The notes beneath the pieces were generated by a model, which did not search any database, was not told the origin of the DNA, and worked only from the letters and a program-made list of their open reading frames with translations. A stretch of DNA of 40,594 nt from Candidatus Bathyarchaeota archaeon (GTDB lineage: Archaea > Thermoproteota > Bathyarchaeia > Bathyarchaeales > DTEX01): assembly GCA_025059045.1 (NCBI GenBank), contig JANXEA010000015.1, positions 1-40,594 on the forward strand, written 5' to 3'. Shown piece after piece: positions 2,150 through 27,011 of this stretch. A program made the position numbers and the translations under genes. Positions within the stretch are counted from its first letter, which is position 1, and the number at the start of each line of letters is the position of its first letter.

Positions 2150-3619
2150 ATGGAGAGATTCAAGCTCGTCTATGTCGGAGCCTGCTCGCATAGGTTCTCC
2201 ATCGGACTTTTTAGGAACATTGTCGCCGCCAAGTCGCTTCACCCAATGGACGTCGTTCTAGTAGACATTGACGAGAAACTTCTCAGATTTGTCCAGAAGA
2301 TCCTGGAGAACATGGCCGACAACGCAAGAGCCGATATAAGGGTCGAATCTACAACAGATCGACGAGAAGCATTCGAGAACGCCGACTTCATATACATTTC
2401 GATATCTGTTGGTGCGCAGGAAAGCGAATGGACCGACATCCACATCCCCCTGAAGTTCGGCATACCGCAGAACACAGGCGACACTATTGGTCCAGGAGGA
2501 ATCTTCCGTGGGCTGCGCTGCATACCAGTCTTCGCCGATATCATCAGAGACGCTTACGACATCTGCCCAAAAGCCGTAGTCCTAAATTACACTAATCCCA
2601 TGTCAACGCTTGTTTTGACGGCTTACACTGTTGCACCCAATCTTCAGACAATAGGCCTCTGTCATGAACTCTTCGGGGGAATGCGAGTAATCCAGGAGCT
2701 TATGCGTCAGAATGGGTATGAGATCAGCAGCTGGGAGGAACTTGAGATAACATATGGGGGAATCAACCATCTTGGGTGGCTGATGACATGCAAATTTGGG
2801 GGAGAAGACATTTACCCGCTTATCCGCGACAAGGCTCCTGAATGTTTTAAGACAGGATTTCTTGGGAGAGCTCTAAACTTCTACCTGCTGATGAAGCATG
2901 GGCTCTATCCATATCCCGGCAGCAGACATGTAGCCGAATTCATACCGAAGTATTACAACTACTTCAATTACCTTCAGTCCCCATTTGGGATCGTGAAGAT
3001 ACGTGATGTTGAAGCGCTTGACCTAGGTCATAAATGGACAGTCCTCCGTTTCGTCGCGATGGCAAGGCCATGGTACAAGGATCGCCTTCCAACCCCGGAC
3101 GAAGGCGGAGAGAAGGCGATGGCGATGACGGTTGATTGGAAGTTCGGTCTTGGCCGCCAATACGTTGTAAACATACCAAACAGCGGATTAGTTTCAAATC
3201 TCCCATCCAACTGCATCGTGGAAGTGCCGGGATACTTCGATAAGGGCAGAATAAGGGGGGTCAAAGTCGGAAAACTTCCAAGAGATATAGCCAAAATCGT
3301 TGATGTCCCTGCATCTAATCAGCGTAATATAGTAGAGGCCGCCTTGAGGGGTGATAAAGACCTTCTTCTCAAAGCATTGTTGAAGGATCCGATGTGCAGC
3401 TTCATTGAAGACCCGGGCCTCATCGAGGACATGATGAATGTGATGCTATACTACCAGCGGAAGTGGCTGCCTAGGTTCGAGGACATACCAGGCGTGGAGG
3501 AGCTCAAGAAGAGAAGGTGGGTGGAGCCCTGGGAGCTTCAAACAAGGGAGGAGGCTCTTAAGGTGAAGTATCCGCCGAGAATGGACCTACAGTCTAAATC
3601 ATGGCCGAATATTGATTAA
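2150..3619 (+). CDS. Glycoside hydrolase family 4 protein
   Basis: A 489-aa NAD- and metal-dependent glycosidase of family GH4, which cleaves by oxidation at C3 and elimination. The Rossmann start is at residues 6-20 (LVYVGACSHRFS), with the nucleotide-binding acidic VDID at 38-41. NYTNP lies at 146-150, the metal-site Cys171-His172 is in CHELFGG, and GGINH at 203-207 is the second metal-site motif. Length is slightly above the 430-480 aa common in the family. The residues after the metal-site Cys (CHE) differ from the CDMP and CNVP types of 6-phospho-glycosidases, so an unphosphorylated galactoside or uronide is more likely; that is inference. It overlaps the opposing rqcH gene by 4 bp at the 3' end. 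No sugar transporter or regulator is adjacent. Confidence 0.9.
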   Translation: MERFKLVYVGACSHRFSIGLFRNIVAAKSLHPMDVVLVDIDEKLLRFVQKILENMADNARADIRVESTTDRREAFENADFIYISISVGAQESEWTDIHIPLKFGIPQNTGDTIGPGGIFRGLRCIPVFADIIRDAYDICPKAVVLNYTNPMSTLVLTAYTVAPNLQTIGLCHELFGGMRVIQELMRQNGYEISSWEELEITYGGINHLGWLMTCKFGGEDIYPLIRDKAPECFKTGFLGRALNFYLLMKHGLYPYPGSRHVAEFIPKYYNYFNYLQSPFGIVKIRDVEALDLGHKWTVLRFVAMARPWYKDRLPTPDEGGEKAMAMTVDWKFGLGRQYVVNIPNSGLVSNLPSNCIVEVPGYFDKGRIRGVKVGKLPRDIAKIVDVPASNQRNIVEAALRGDKDLLLKALLKDPMCSFIEDPGLIEDMMNVMLYYQRKWLPRFEDIPGVEELKKRRWVEPWELQTREEALKVKYPPRMDLQSKSWPNID

Positions 3620-11121: not shown

Positions 11122-11127
11122 CGAGTA

Positions 11128-14198
<3,071 letters not shown>

Positions 14199-16767: not shown

Positions 16768-18006
16768 TTAGGCTACACTCCCCGCATCTTTGCAGAGGAT
16801 GAGCAGCGCGGCCGCGGTTGGCAATTCGACTTCAACATTGCTGTAGGGGCCGAATTCTTCATCTCCAATCCTGAACTTGGGGGCTTCCCGCACATGGACT
16901 CTTACTTCCCCCCTCTCGAATGCTACCGACTCTTTTAGCGGATCAAATTCTTCTATCATATCTGCTGGAAATGAGACCTTCATTAGCCCTGTGCCTCCGT
17001 GGAGAGTGTTAGGCATCCTTATCAGCCTATGAATGTCGGTTGTAACCACCGTGTCAATCTTTGCGGCTTCCCCCTCAACCGCATGTTTGATCAGTGTATC
17101 CAATGCTTTCCTACTTATCCCCCTCAACAGGCTCCAAGGTTCAACGCCTTCCCTCAATAGCATAGAACCCTTTCTCGCCTGCAGAATATCCGTTATGATC
17201 TTCTTGCTCAACCCGAATTCCTTAAGTTCCTCCTCGCTTGCGGACGCGAGTATGTTAAGCAGCCCCTTCGTTATCCTGCCGCGCCAGCCACCATCATTCA
17301 CGCTTGGTCCAGAAATAATCCTTAACCTCTTCGAGCCTGAAACTATTAAACCGTGGAATGATGCGTCGATTCCCACTCCCATAATATAGTCTACCAACTC
17401 TTTGCGGGCTGATGAATCCAATTCCTTCGCGCTCTCATTCTCCACGTGAACGTGGTAACCGCGATGCCCGCTGAATGAGACCTCCAGATCCTTCGAGGAG
17501 CAACCGAATTCCTCTCTTAGAATATCTATGAGCTTCATCGCCTCAGACTTTGCTGATTCAAGGCATAACTCGCATAGCCATGTCTTTCCATCAAAGCTTT
17601 TTCCATCGCATATTGGGCATTGAGGCGGTGTAACCCCTCTTCCAATAAGCCCGCAGCTTCTACACCTCCACCTATCATGGATCTTTCCACACCGGGTTGG
17701 GATATGGTCCGCGTCGATGTCGAAGTATATGTCAGCTCCGAGCCAACCCTTATCCTCCATTTTCTCTTCTGGCGCTTGATAATATGCGGTTGAGTAGTAT
17801 GCGTGGGCTGGAACAATCTGCATTATGAAGCTTTTAAGTTCCTCTGCAGTTTTGAAGCCCTTATGCCTCAGCATAATATTCTCCTTAAAGAGTAAGAAGC
17901 CGAACTCCCTCTGCTCGAGAAGCCTTGGGACCTGGATGATTGATGATTTTTCCCTGTAGAACTCCGCGAATTTTTCCTGAATAAACGTTAGATTATCCAT
18001 CCTCAA
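16768..18006 (-). CDS. priS: DNA primase small (catalytic) subunit PriS
   Basis: 412-aa archaeo-eukaryotic primase catalytic subunit that makes replication primers with PriL. The catalytic aspartates are visible in DIYFDIDADH (Asp96, Asp98), and SFSGHRGYHVHV is the nucleotide-binding motif of the AEP fold. Zinc-knuckle cysteines lie in CRSCG, CPIC and CELC between residues 112 and 152, a somewhat expanded set. Somewhat longer than many archaeal PriS (330-400 aa). The start ATG 18006 is 3 bp from the priL stop; an ATG two codons later is an alternative. Part of the tfs-pcna-priL-priS-gins51 set. Confidence 0.95.
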   Translation of the reverse strand: MRMDNLTFIQEKFAEFYREKSSIIQVPRLLEQREFGFLLFKENIMLRHKGFKTAEELKSFIMQIVPAHAYYSTAYYQAPEEKMEDKGWLGADIYFDIDADHIPTRCGKIHDRWRCRSCGLIGRGVTPPQCPICDGKSFDGKTWLCELCLESAKSEAMKLIDILREEFGCSSKDLEVSFSGHRGYHVHVENESAKELDSSARKELVDYIMGVGIDASFHGLIVSGSKRLRIISGPSVNDGGWRGRITKGLLNILASASEEELKEFGLSKKIITDILQARKGSMLLREGVEPWSLLRGISRKALDTLIKHAVEGEAAKIDTVVTTDIHRLIRMPNTLHGGTGLMKVSFPADMIEEFDPLKESVAFERGEVRVHVREAPKFRIGDEEFGPYSNVEVELPTAAALLILCKDAGSVA

Positions 18007-18009
18007 ACT

Positions 18010-19080
18010 CTAAGTTACGGAGGATCCGCTCTTAAGTGTTCTTATTCTCCTCCGGTAATAACTTAATGGGTGGCGAAACCTGCCACAGGAACCCTCAGCC
18101 CTTGGACATAGACCATGAGTCTTCAGCGTGTCGCATGTCGGAGGAATATATTTTGTTCTCGAGCCTCTTTCTCCGGATATGTGCTCAACTTGATATCTGG
18201 TCAACCTCTCATTAAAGTCAGCTGATGATCTGAAGAGGTTTATCACATCTTCACCACTCATGCCTACGCTTAAAAGGAATGAGGTCAGGGTGAAACGTCC
18301 AACATGGGAGATATGCTGGCCTGATAGTGCAGATTGGTAGAGCTGGTTGATGCATGGTGGGAAGGCCTCGTTAACAACTCCGACAGGATGTTTGGGGAGG
18401 ATTGGTTGCTCCGCTCCCCTGGAGTACATTCGCTTCAGATTGTCTATGCGTGCAAGTATACTTTCTGGAAGCACTGGCTTCGCGTCGGTGTTGACCCTGC
18501 TCTCTATCCTCCTCCGAATTTCCTCCTGGAGTAACCGTGCGGCTTCTGACTTTGATAGGTAAACTTCTCCCTTGATTACTGTTCGATTAACTAGTTTCCA
18601 TTCTTTCTCGTGGAATTGGCTTGTATTCCTCAAGAAATCGGCGAGCGAAATGGCGAAATCGAATTTCCTTCCATAAATCATTTCCTCTGCCGCTTTAATG
18701 TTCCAGTTGAATATTTTCGCGATCTCAAGGATCTTTTCTTCCTTCTCCTCTATCTTTAGAATTTCGTAGGCCCGTTTCGCCTCGAAAAGTGCGTAACGGC
18801 GCTTTATATAGTCGCTGTTCGAAACTGCCGCCATCATAACTGCCAGCGGGAAGGATGGAATTTCAATGTCAGGTATTCTCATCTCCTTAATGAAGTGGGT
18901 TCCATCCGCATTCGACCAGTCCCCTGTTAGAGCATTTCTAAGCCTTTCTTCAGCCCTGTCGACGATCGGCCTATAGTCATCGCTTTCTAGACTGTCAATC
19001 CTCAAATCACGTTGCCTAATATAATCCGCCGCGTAAAGTAGAAAAGGGTATTTTGCAAGGTCGTTCTGGGTAAACACCAA
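18010..19080 (-). CDS. priL: DNA primase large subunit PriL
   Basis: 356 aa. The N-terminal helical domain covers roughly residues 1-220. The C-terminal domain holds four cysteines that bind [4Fe-4S]: PPCINQL, PPTCDTL, GLCPRAEG and GSCGRFRHP. The conserved GRFTLTSFLLSVGMS lies between the first two. PriL regulates initiation and product length of PriS. It sits 24 bp after the pcna stop and is followed at 3 bp by priS, so the pair is certainly co-expressed. Length and motif order match the family. Confidence 0.95.
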   Translation of the reverse strand: MVFTQNDLAKYPFLLYAADYIRQRDLRIDSLESDDYRPIVDRAEERLRNALTGDWSNADGTHFIKEMRIPDIEIPSFPLAVMMAAVSNSDYIKRRYALFEAKRAYEILKIEEKEEKILEIAKIFNWNIKAAEEMIYGRKFDFAISLADFLRNTSQFHEKEWKLVNRTVIKGEVYLSKSEAARLLQEEIRRRIESRVNTDAKPVLPESILARIDNLKRMYSRGAEQPILPKHPVGVVNEAFPPCINQLYQSALSGQHISHVGRFTLTSFLLSVGMSGEDVINLFRSSADFNERLTRYQVEHISGERGSRTKYIPPTCDTLKTHGLCPRAEGSCGRFRHPLSYYRRRIRTLKSGSSVT

Positions 19081-19104: not shown

Positions 19105-19860
19105 TCATTCAACCTCTATCCTTGGCGCCAGATAATATGTTAAAGTGCCATCATACCGCTGCTTAAAGTCGAGGCGTATTGGCATATCATTTGAGAATTC
19201 GATCGTGACTATCTCCGATGTCGCCGATGCGGCTTTAACTATTTCGGAGAGGTAGCTCAGCGGAAAAGATGATTTGGACGGCTCCTTCACATCTAATGAG
19301 AGGAGGGCGTCGCTTCCTTTTTTAAGCTCTATGTCCGCCCCCATTATGTCCCCCTTAGCTCTCATAACCACCTTCTCTTCATCGGCTTCTATCCTAACGT
19401 AATCGCTTACGAGGGCGACGTCCTCAAGCGACCGGTGTAATCCATCAGTTGTGAGGGTTACCTTCGCCTTGAATTCTATCTTGGGCGTCGGAATATCCTC
19501 TTCGCTTGCCTCTAGAGTTGGCATCCTAAATGTGCGGACATAGTTTCCCATCATCGTCGTTACGAATTGGCCGGTTTCCTCGTCGAGCCTAAGCTCAACG
19601 ATCTCATCTTTCCCAGCTCTCTTAAGGAGTTTCAGGAGTTCATTTAGGTTCAAACATATCCTCGTCTCCCCATCAATGGCGAACTCCTCAAATGCTGTTT
19701 TCTGCATGGCGAAGTCGACCATAGCCACACGTGTGGGATCCATAGCCCTTAATTTCATTCCCTCCCCATCTATCTTGAATGTTCCTTCGTCAACGATTGT
19801 TGAGATAGCGGTTATCGCGTCTCTAAGCATCTTTGCGTCGGGCATCCTAACCTTAAACAA
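19105..19860 (-). CDS. pcn: PCNA sliding clamp
   Basis: 251 aa from the TTG at 19860 (FKVRMPDAKMLRDAI). The family-typical start and a TATA element at 19898-19908, about 40 bp upstream, both argue against the longer in-frame start at 19938, which lies upstream of that TATA. Two clamp domains are visible: GMKLRAMDPTRVAMVDF in the first half and the interdomain connector region followed by YLSEIVKAA and MPIRLDFKQRYDGTLTYYLAPRIEVE in the second. It tethers polymerase B/D, FEN1 and ligase to DNA. Only one PCNA gene is seen here; crenarchaeal heterotrimers would need others elsewhere. It leads priL and priS. Confidence 0.95.
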   Translation of the reverse strand: MFKVRMPDAKMLRDAITAISTIVDEGTFKIDGEGMKLRAMDPTRVAMVDFAMQKTAFEEFAIDGETRICLNLNELLKLLKRAGKDEIVELRLDEETGQFVTTMMGNYVRTFRMPTLEASEEDIPTPKIEFKAKVTLTTDGLHRSLEDVALVSDYVRIEADEEKVVMRAKGDIMGADIELKKGSDALLSLDVKEPSKSSFPLSYLSEIVKAASATSEIVTIEFSNDMPIRLDFKQRYDGTLTYYLAPRIEVE

Positions 19861-19897
19861 GACTGGCCACCACGAATGAATACAGTTTCCACGCTGT

Positions 19898-19908
19898 CTT
19901 ATATGTTT
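19898..19908 (-). promoter_or_regulatory. pcna TATA box
   Basis: Read leftward, AACATATAAG lies about 40 bp upstream of the TTG start at 19860, so transcription should begin about 19875-19880. This placement rules out the longer open frame that starts at 19938. Confidence 0.6.
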
Positions 19909-19987
19909 GGATAACGGTAATTTAACAGTTTGCCCCATACGTCTTCGAGATTAGAAGAGAGTGGAGCTGCCAGCCCTATAATTGCCT

Positions 19988-20037
19988 CTAACTATACTCT
20001 CTAAAGTTTAACTGCACTTTTGCATCTAAAGAATTTG
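19988..20037 (-). repeat. Degenerate second copy of the tfs 3' end (attR-like)
   Basis: This matches the last ~46-50 bp of the tfs gene at 20830-20881. Shared runs include ATTCTTTAGATGC and CTTTAGAGAGTA, with a few substitutions and small indels. The final codons still read F-R-E-Y-S-stop with different synonymous codons (TAT AGT TAG here against TAC TCG TAA in tfs). It lies in the same orientation about 840 bp from the intact copy, with an integrase remnant between them. The simplest reading is the displaced original gene end at the far edge of an integrated element. Confidence 0.78.
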
Positions 20038-20040
20038 GGC

Positions 20041-20277
20041 TTTGGTTTTCTCTCAACATTTTTGATGGCTTTCAGTCATGATCTCACATTTAATTGTTAT
20101 ATGTGTTAATGGCGGTTTTCGGTTTTAAACAAGAAAGTTTTAGGCTTATTTCAGCGTTTAGACATTGTTTTCAGGCTTCTTTTAGGAAAAATTTTGCCAC
20201 CACAAAACCGTCCCAAATGTTATGCGCTAAGCACATTCTGGGTGTCATTGCCCGGCCACTTTCCTTTACTGAATAAT
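20041..20277. other. Decayed sequence inside the putative integrated element
   Basis: No gene is supported here. The leftward strand continues from the integrase remnant but is broken by stops in every frame, and I could not find the His-x-x-Arg and Tyr boxes expected for the C-terminal half of a tyrosine recombinase. It probably contains heavily decayed 3' integrase sequence or other element DNA. Confidence 0.45.
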
Positions 20278-20825
20278 TTAACCCCGTCTACTTCCACAAC
20301 AAACCCGAAGAAGGCAGTCGTCCAATTTGAAGCCCCTAGTTTTTATGTAATGTTTAAGCATGGCTTAAGTGTTAGGCTTCAAGGGTAAAACCCTCGGGTT
20401 TCCTTGCTTTGCGCTTGTAACTGAAACCAAAACTCTTTCCAAGTCGAAGCCCCTAAGACCAAACCCTGCAACCTCAAAGGGTCTCAACCCACACTCCTTC
20501 ATTAAAGTGTAGATGATGGCATATTTTTGGCTTGCCTGGGCTATAATCAGGTTTATCTTCTCCTATTTCGGGCATTTGGAATCCTGTGGTCACGTTTATA
20601 CTTTGGCTTGTCAGAGGGGATCCCATAAAAGCCAGAGGGGTTGGCTTTAAATGTTTCTTAAACAGGCTTCTTCGAAATGTGAAGGGAAACTTCTTCCGGG
20701 TTGCTTAAATCAGCTTTTCTGGAAATCTCCTTTATGGCTTTAACCCTTCATGTCAAATGCCCTTCGGAAAACCCTAACCGTCTAAGTTTTAGGGCTACAG
20801 AAAGTATTCTCTCATCGAGTTCCAA
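20278..20825 (-). pseudogene. Tyrosine recombinase (integrase) remnant
   Basis: Reading leftward, broken frames give an archaeal tyrosine-recombinase pattern. A SAM-like N-terminal domain appears as ILSVALKLRRLGFSEGHL, then KAIKEIS and LSNPEEV, interrupted by a TGA at 20748-20750 and a TAA at 20658-20660. After DKPKYKRDHRIP a frameshift (about 20560-20576) leads to a core fragment with IIYTLMKECGLRPFEVAG, where the Arg of CGLR is the box-I catalytic residue, and SAKQGNPRVLPLKPNT, where the Lys is the expected beta-hairpin lysine. A TAA at 20365-20367 and later stops end it. Box II and the active tyrosine are not recognisable. The remnant begins at the first bases after the tfs stop and lies between two copies of the tfs 3' end. 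The gene is clearly dead; the identification rests on motif pattern only. Confidence 0.8.
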
Positions 20826-20829
20826 GTGT

Positions 20830-20881
20830 TTACGAGTACTCTCTAAAAGTGTAGTTGCATTTTGTGCATCTAAAGAATTGG
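20830..20881 (-). repeat. tfs 3' end, intact copy (attL-like)
   Basis: The last 17 codons of tfs, including its stop, duplicated in degenerate form at 19988-20037. Site-specific integration into the 3' end of a gene normally leaves the host gene restored by the element's copy and the original end pushed to the far side, which fits here. Confidence 0.75.
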
Positions 20882-21168
20882 GTTGAGGATTCGTCGGCTC
20901 CTCTTGTCTGAACTTGCCAGACATATGCTTCATTGTTTCCACATTTTGGGCATTCGACCGTGATTGTGGGGAGGGTTTTCAGTTCCTGCTCCTTCTTACC
21001 TATTACCACAATCTTTTCTTCCGGCACCATCTCCAAGGTCTTCGCCGGCTTAATCAGAGATTCCGCCGGCTTTATATACCCGCATTTAGGGCAGGTTAAG
21101 GAGAACTCCTTAGCCTCCTTCTTGCGCTTCAGGACAAGCCGGGTGCCGCATTTTTCACAAAAATCCAT
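20830..21168 (-). CDS. tfs: Transcription factor S (TFS; TFIIS/RPB9-like cleavage factor)
   Basis: About 112 aa. The N-terminal zinc ribbon is MDFCEKCG with TCPKCGY. The C-terminal ribbon has ECPKCGNNEAYVWQ, the catalytic acidic pair in RGADESST, and FRCTKCNYTF. TFS induces transcript cleavage in backtracked archaeal RNA polymerase. The start is ATG 21168: the upstream in-frame ATG at 21207 lies too near the TATA element at 21218-21227 to be transcribed. It heads the leftward group with pcna and primase, but a decayed integrase element now separates it from pcna. Its last codons act as the presumed attachment site. Confidence 0.94.
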   Translation of the reverse strand: MDFCEKCGTRLVLKRKKEAKEFSLTCPKCGYIKPAESLIKPAKTLEMVPEEKIVVIGKKEQELKTLPTITVECPKCGNNEAYVWQVQTRGADESSTQFFRCTKCNYTFREYS

Positions 21169-21217
21169 GAAAGCTGCCCCTATATCCGTGACGTTTTCAA
21201 TTAACATTGAGAAGGCT

Positions 21218-26935: not shown

Positions 26936-27011
26936 GCCGGGGTGGCCGAGCGGTTTAGGCGGCGGGCTGCAGACTCGCTGAACATGGGTTCAAATCCCAT
27001 CCCCGGCTCCA
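26936..27011 (+). tRNA. trnC: tRNA-Cys (GCA)
   Basis: Cloverleaf folded by eye. The acceptor stem GCCGGGG pairs with CCCCGGC (27001-27007), with discriminator T and encoded CCA (27009-27011). The D arm is GCC...GGC, and the anticodon loop CTGCAGA sits on a 5-bp stem with one G-U pair. The T arm is ATGGG-TTCAAAT-CCCAT. The anticodon is GCA and the U discriminator is the Cys identity base. No intron. A T-rich TATA-like stretch (aattttTATC, about 26897-26905) lies about 30 bp upstream. Confidence 0.96.

Follow-up and report, generated by a model that had tools for sequence, protein, structure and literature searches.

How did a second copy of the 3′ end of tfs, the gene for transcription factor S, come to lie between tfs and pcna in this Candidatus Bathyarchaeota genome? 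The window, i.e. the whole stretch of DNA analysed here (40,594 nt), is contig C15 (40.6 kb; JANXEA010000015.1) of genome G000 (1.42 Mb, 98% complete, 27 contigs). Positions 19988-20882 are best read, with a probability of about 94%, as what is left of a small integrative element, which would have been inserted into the last tfs codons through site-specific recombination by a tyrosine recombinase. The mechanism is ordinary site-specific integration; the target gene is new. No report of tfs as an attachment (att) site was found in the literature searched, which took in few subscription papers.

Repeated tfs end and integrase remnant

The tfs gene (20830..21207, minus strand) is intact (TIGR01384, TFS_arch, E=2.4e-21, above the cut-off) and single copy, with one TIGR01384 match across the window genome. 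Its 3′ end recurs downstream in the same orientation (minus strand) at an offset of exactly 842 bp. The near copy (attL, minus strand), which is the functional gene end and is fused to an integrase reading frame, has a stop codon ending at 20830 and an alignable repeat at 20837..20882. The far copy (attR, 19988..20038, minus strand) has a stop ending at 19988 and an alignable repeat at 19995-20038, with two small indels upstream. The repeats were aligned over 46 columns with a score of 53, compared with a maximum of 24 in 2,000 shuffles, and nothing else in the window scored above 24. TTT AGA GAG TAC TCG TAA is read in the near copy and TTT AGA GAG TAT AGT TAG in the far copy; both encode FREYS-stop with different synonymous codons, exactly as described in an earlier, sequence-only reading of the window, whose coordinates are confirmed and whose interpretation is largely upheld.

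That reading had also placed a broken tyrosine-recombinase gene between tfs and pcna, and the gene was found by comparison with P0001, the intact integrase of a related element described below (tblastn, E=2.5e-42). Residues 1-199 of the 314 in P0001 are covered, in two frames, with a frameshift and four in-frame stops. The N-terminal part (20562..20891, minus strand) corresponds to residues 1-115 at 50% identity and contains two of the stops; the start of the catalytic domain (20311..20577, minus strand) corresponds to residues 111-199 at 39% identity, lies in another frame, contains the other two stops and retains the box-I Arg and the Lys. This middle fragment was matched by Phage_integrase (PF00589, E=1.5e-4) and PHROG 216 (E=3.9e-5). 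In the degenerate rest of the element (20041..20310, minus strand) the integrase C-terminus and any cargo are no longer recognisable: the C-terminal third (R-H...H...Y) scored 30 by frameshift-aware alignment against the window, with a shuffle maximum of 34, and the HNH gene of the related element gave no significant match in the window.

The position of the integrase had been given correctly in so far as the remnant lies between the two copies; its frame, however, starts inside the tfs 3′ end and not after tfs. The tfs 3′ end, read in another frame, encodes the first integrase residues (NPQPNSLDAQNATTLLESTRK), so that the first ~20 codons of the remnant overlap tfs out of frame; because of this overlap the element does not simply sit downstream of tfs as a passenger. 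The open integrase frame within tfs was considered as a sign of adaptation and rejected, as every relative checked has this frame open for at least 98 nt upstream of the stop.

No inverted repeats were found at the ends of the window element. A casposon was rejected, as terminal inverted repeats are absent and the recombinase is a tyrosine recombinase. A plasmid collection gave no match, and viral contigs yielded distant integrases only, none of them seen at tfs.

Occupied and empty sites in related genomes

The window genome and 100 relatives were searched for tfs; 93 of the 101 genomes were matched and 30 tfs loci were fetched. Among the tfs loci of the relatives, one other genome, G002 (another genus of the same family; contig CALKGV010000004.1, locus L035), carries an integrase that overlaps tfs in the same alternative frame. 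In L035, tfs extends to 1710, the open reading frame (ORF) of the integrase P0001 ends at 2593, an HNH-like ORF occupies 2887-3357, and a second tfs end at 3498-3528 is followed by pcna and by ORFs with the order and sequence character of priL and priS. P0001 was matched by PF00589 with E=7.7e-23 and has kept all catalytic residues (R142, K167, R235, H236, H258 and Y267). The HNH-like ORF (156 aa; PHROG HNH families, best E=1.1e-6) is the sole recognised cargo, and none of the related integrase loci checked was found to have it. The two tfs ends are spaced such that the insertion measures exactly 1,818 bp.

An empty counterpart is present in G018, which belongs to the same genus as G002 and has an unoccupied tfs site. 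The left flanks of the two genomes are identical at 323 of 327 positions (98.8%) and the right flanks, from the far tfs end onward, at 249 of 255 (97.6%); the G002 DNA right of the near tfs end gave no alignment with G018. The far tfs end of G002 matches 25/25 nt of the sequence that follows the G018 tfs stop. The sequence-only reading had proposed a search for full-length elements with the same att sequence and a comparison of the tfs-pcna interval in relatives; an element with an intact integrase at this att site is present in G002, and a near-identical empty site in G018. A possible further remnant at tfs, in G006 (L037), was set aside: once the residues encoded by tfs were left out, it scored 38, with a background maximum of 36.

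Crossover core and model of insertion

The attL of G002 equals G018 up to and including AGAGAGTATTC and diverges after it, and attR equals G018 from AGAGAGTATTC on and diverges just before it; the G002 crossover therefore falls within the 11 bp AGAGAGTATTC. For the window element, attL and attR have the stretch TTTAGAGAGTA in common. Taken together, the two stretches therefore give the shared core AGAGAGTA, which spans the tfs codons R-E-Y and lies, as the putative crossover region, at 20837..20844 in attL and at 19995..20002 in attR (both minus strand).

Of the tfs genes whose ends were matched in 257 genomes of the class, the two occupied ones alone end in TCG TAA. The far end in the window, TAT AGT TAG, resembles the TAT AGC TAG of the nearest relative, G001, which is unoccupied. 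The resemblance of the displaced far ends to unoccupied genomes, in the window as in G002, supports the earlier suggestion that the far copy is probably the displaced original gene end.

The repeats, the integrase remnant, the altered gene end, the related element with its intact integrase and the empty site are all directly visible in the sequences; from them the following course of events is proposed, in which the recombination itself and the exact points of strand exchange are inferred. The attachment site of the element would lie at the 5′ end of its own integrase gene, and strand exchange within AGAGAGTA would leave the host's own tfs end beyond the element. The element would supply the last tfs codon and the stop (TCG TAA), by which the TFS protein would be restored unchanged, and the integrase frame would then be joined to the 3′ end of tfs in a different frame. 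A frameshift and stop codons would have come later, in a decay by which the integrase C-terminus and any cargo were lost. A core transcription gene would thereby join the archaeal attachment sites, with the occupied relative and the empty site as proof at the level of single bases, and a way would be given in which an element can occupy a single-copy transcription-factor gene and leave its protein unchanged.

The same repeats might instead stem from slippage or unequal recombination that duplicated the tfs 3′ end locally, beside an unrelated integrase pseudogene. Direct repeats can arise in this manner, and the repeat in the window is imperfect; the same arrangement is nevertheless present with an intact sister integrase in G002, together with the near-identical empty site of G018, the TCG TAA ending is common to both elements and absent elsewhere, and in each of them the repeat contains the start of the integrase frame. 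We consider local duplication very improbable.

Other points weigh against an integrative element. The indels in the far copy make the integrase frame at attR unreadable in the window, and a close empty site for the window genome was not found: the nearest relative, G001, is of another genus, and its intergenic DNA is not visibly alignable. The related genomes that serve as evidence are, moreover, metagenome bins. This last point, and the 27 contigs of the window genome, could favour an assembly or binning chimera in which tfs was joined to a foreign integrase fragment. The contig extends to 40.6 kb, however, with the locus in its middle and the conserved genes pcna, priL and priS beyond the far side of the locus, and the same structure occurs in an independent genome of another genus; a chimera appears more improbable still. 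An old resident recombinase gene, such as a XerA-like resolvase acting near tfs, can be practically dismissed: the best curated profile of the G002 protein is indeed archaeal XerA (NF040815, E=1.9e-32), but the score of 112.9 is half of the cut-off of 220, most relatives have no integrase at the tfs locus, and the locus is flanked by att repeats, with the gene decayed in the window genome.

Integrase start codon

The only start codon of the G002 integrase with a ribosome-binding site (GGGAGGAGTCAAA-TTG) was found at attR; it is in frame with the integrase through att, and only a few codons lie between this TTG and the att core. At attL, where the frame remains open through tfs (353 aa), no start lies between tfs and residue 48 of P0001. 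An upstream start at attR was found in the integrase frame in 7 of 11 elements, compared with 4/11 and 3/11 for the other frames, which is suggestive and not decisive. It is proposed from these sequences that integration may detach the native start from the integrase gene.

An AF2 model of P0001, built from a two-sequence alignment, had a mean pLDDT of 59 and was too poor for a fold search. The model suggests that residues 1-22 could be unstructured, with the first helix from residue 23; the N-terminus could therefore vary with the target.

A wider idea, which we put forward as tentative and rather doubtful, is that the whole subfamily carries attP in the first codons of its own gene. On integration, the integrase would lose its native ribosome-binding site and start and acquire in their place the 3′ end of the target (tRNA, RNase P RNA or tfs), read out of frame; it would thereby be silenced or placed under transcription of the target gene. 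Such integrases would be self-limiting, would not belong to the SSV lineage and would have switched targets repeatedly.

Integrase family and its targets

An unrooted tree was constructed from 32 integrases. The two tfs-site integrases are sisters (support 100/98), and this result was unchanged when the att-encoded N-terminal residues were left out. When 398 genomes of the phylum were sampled, relatives at E<1e-60 were found in the same order only. In these relatives the integrase ORF has its start within or next to the 3′ end of an RNA gene: at seven Bathyarchaeia loci (L049, L050, L055, L056, L057, L063 and L064) this is the RNase P RNA gene (RF00373), and at several others a tRNA gene. Archaeal RNase P RNA was likewise not found as an attachment site in the literature searched.

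The integrases at tRNA and RNase P RNA genes (L044, L047-L050, L055-L057, L063, L064 and L068) belong to the same subfamily as those at tfs (35-46% identity), and their elements share the start of the integrase ORF in or beside the target 3′ end and, where checked, repeats of the target end. They differ from the tfs-site elements in the use of RNA genes as targets and in being larger; where the other end was found, the related elements are about 3.3-9.9 kb long and are bounded by 22-49 bp repeats of the target-gene end. The use of tfs therefore looks like a target switch in a Bathyarchaeia subfamily that usually uses RNA genes, the direction of the switch being taken from an unrooted tree. With integrases at the ends of tRNA, RNase P RNA and protein genes, this subfamily offers a tractable case for how integrases change their target.

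Two observations concern the related elements themselves. A Cys-rich protein with an SPHFH/SPHYH-like motif is common to L081, L082, L084, L086 and L088; it is perhaps a putative rolling-circle (HUH) replication protein, and the HFH-motif protein had no convincing match in Pfam or PHROG. In the RNase P-site element L078 (G044:C12:98900-105934), a second, partial integrase C-terminus (121 aa) adjoins a TIR-like-looking ORF, which suggests nested or tandem integration.

Relation to known systems

The sequence-only reading had called a protein-coding transcription-factor gene an uncommon attachment site in comparison with tRNA genes. Archaeal integration into the 3′ ends of protein genes is documented, and at 14 of 68 thaumarchaeal elements, including NitEve-E2 (PMC6563490), it is less unusual in archaea than had been implied. 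NitEve-E2 is a close parallel: element DNA supplying TAA replaced the last 8 nt of its target gene, including TAG, at a 13 bp att site. The target gene and the host phylum are different, and no integrase frame overlapping the target gene is described for it (PMC6563490).

Class II integrases are characterised by an R...YxxR...Y motif, whereas those of class I contain PF16795 and are split on integration (PMC8371274). By domain and motif the tfs-site integrases fit class II: like the pNOB8-type enzymes (PMC8371274) they have a PF00589 catalytic domain, and the motif is found in P0001 (R142, Y232-D-F-R235, Y267). The integrase body appears uninterrupted after integration, with an intact catalytic body in G002; the gene in the window would have been broken by later decay. 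Unlike in the pNOB8 type, att and the 5′ end of the gene overlap, and the likely native start in G002 is apparently separated from the gene by integration. In this respect they resemble the SSV-type (suicidal) integrases of SSV1, pTN3 and pT26-2 (PMC8371274), in which att lies inside the integrase gene and the 5′ end of the gene changes sides on integration. The SSV-type enzymes, in contrast, are PF16795 proteins that integration divides into Int(N) and Int(C); in the tfs-site integrases PF16795 was not found, the domain match is to PF00589 only, and only a few codons would be displaced.

Gene cluster and other features of the window

In the sequence-only reading the element splits what looks like a tfs-pcna-priL-priS-gins51 cluster. 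Of these neighbours, profile matches confirmed pcna (19105..19938; NF002221, E=2.1e-76), the next gene of the cluster and apparently pushed away from tfs, as well as priL (18010..19080; NF002588, E=2.1e-85) and priS (16768..18006; NF001641, E=2.5e-69), by which the cluster is continued; all are on the minus strand. In 18 of 28 relatives pcna is located directly 3′ of tfs without a long insert. The tfs-pcna interval is long in G012 and G019 and holds a similar methyltransferase-like ORF (L036:4140-5060 and L016) without att repeats; these gaps were considered as integrase remnants and rejected, the ORF being methyltransferase-like and not an integrase.

Elsewhere in the window, a complete archaeal 23S rRNA gene was located at 11127-14196 (plus strand), with no tRNA found beside the rRNA, and a tRNA-Cys gene at 26936-27011 (plus strand).
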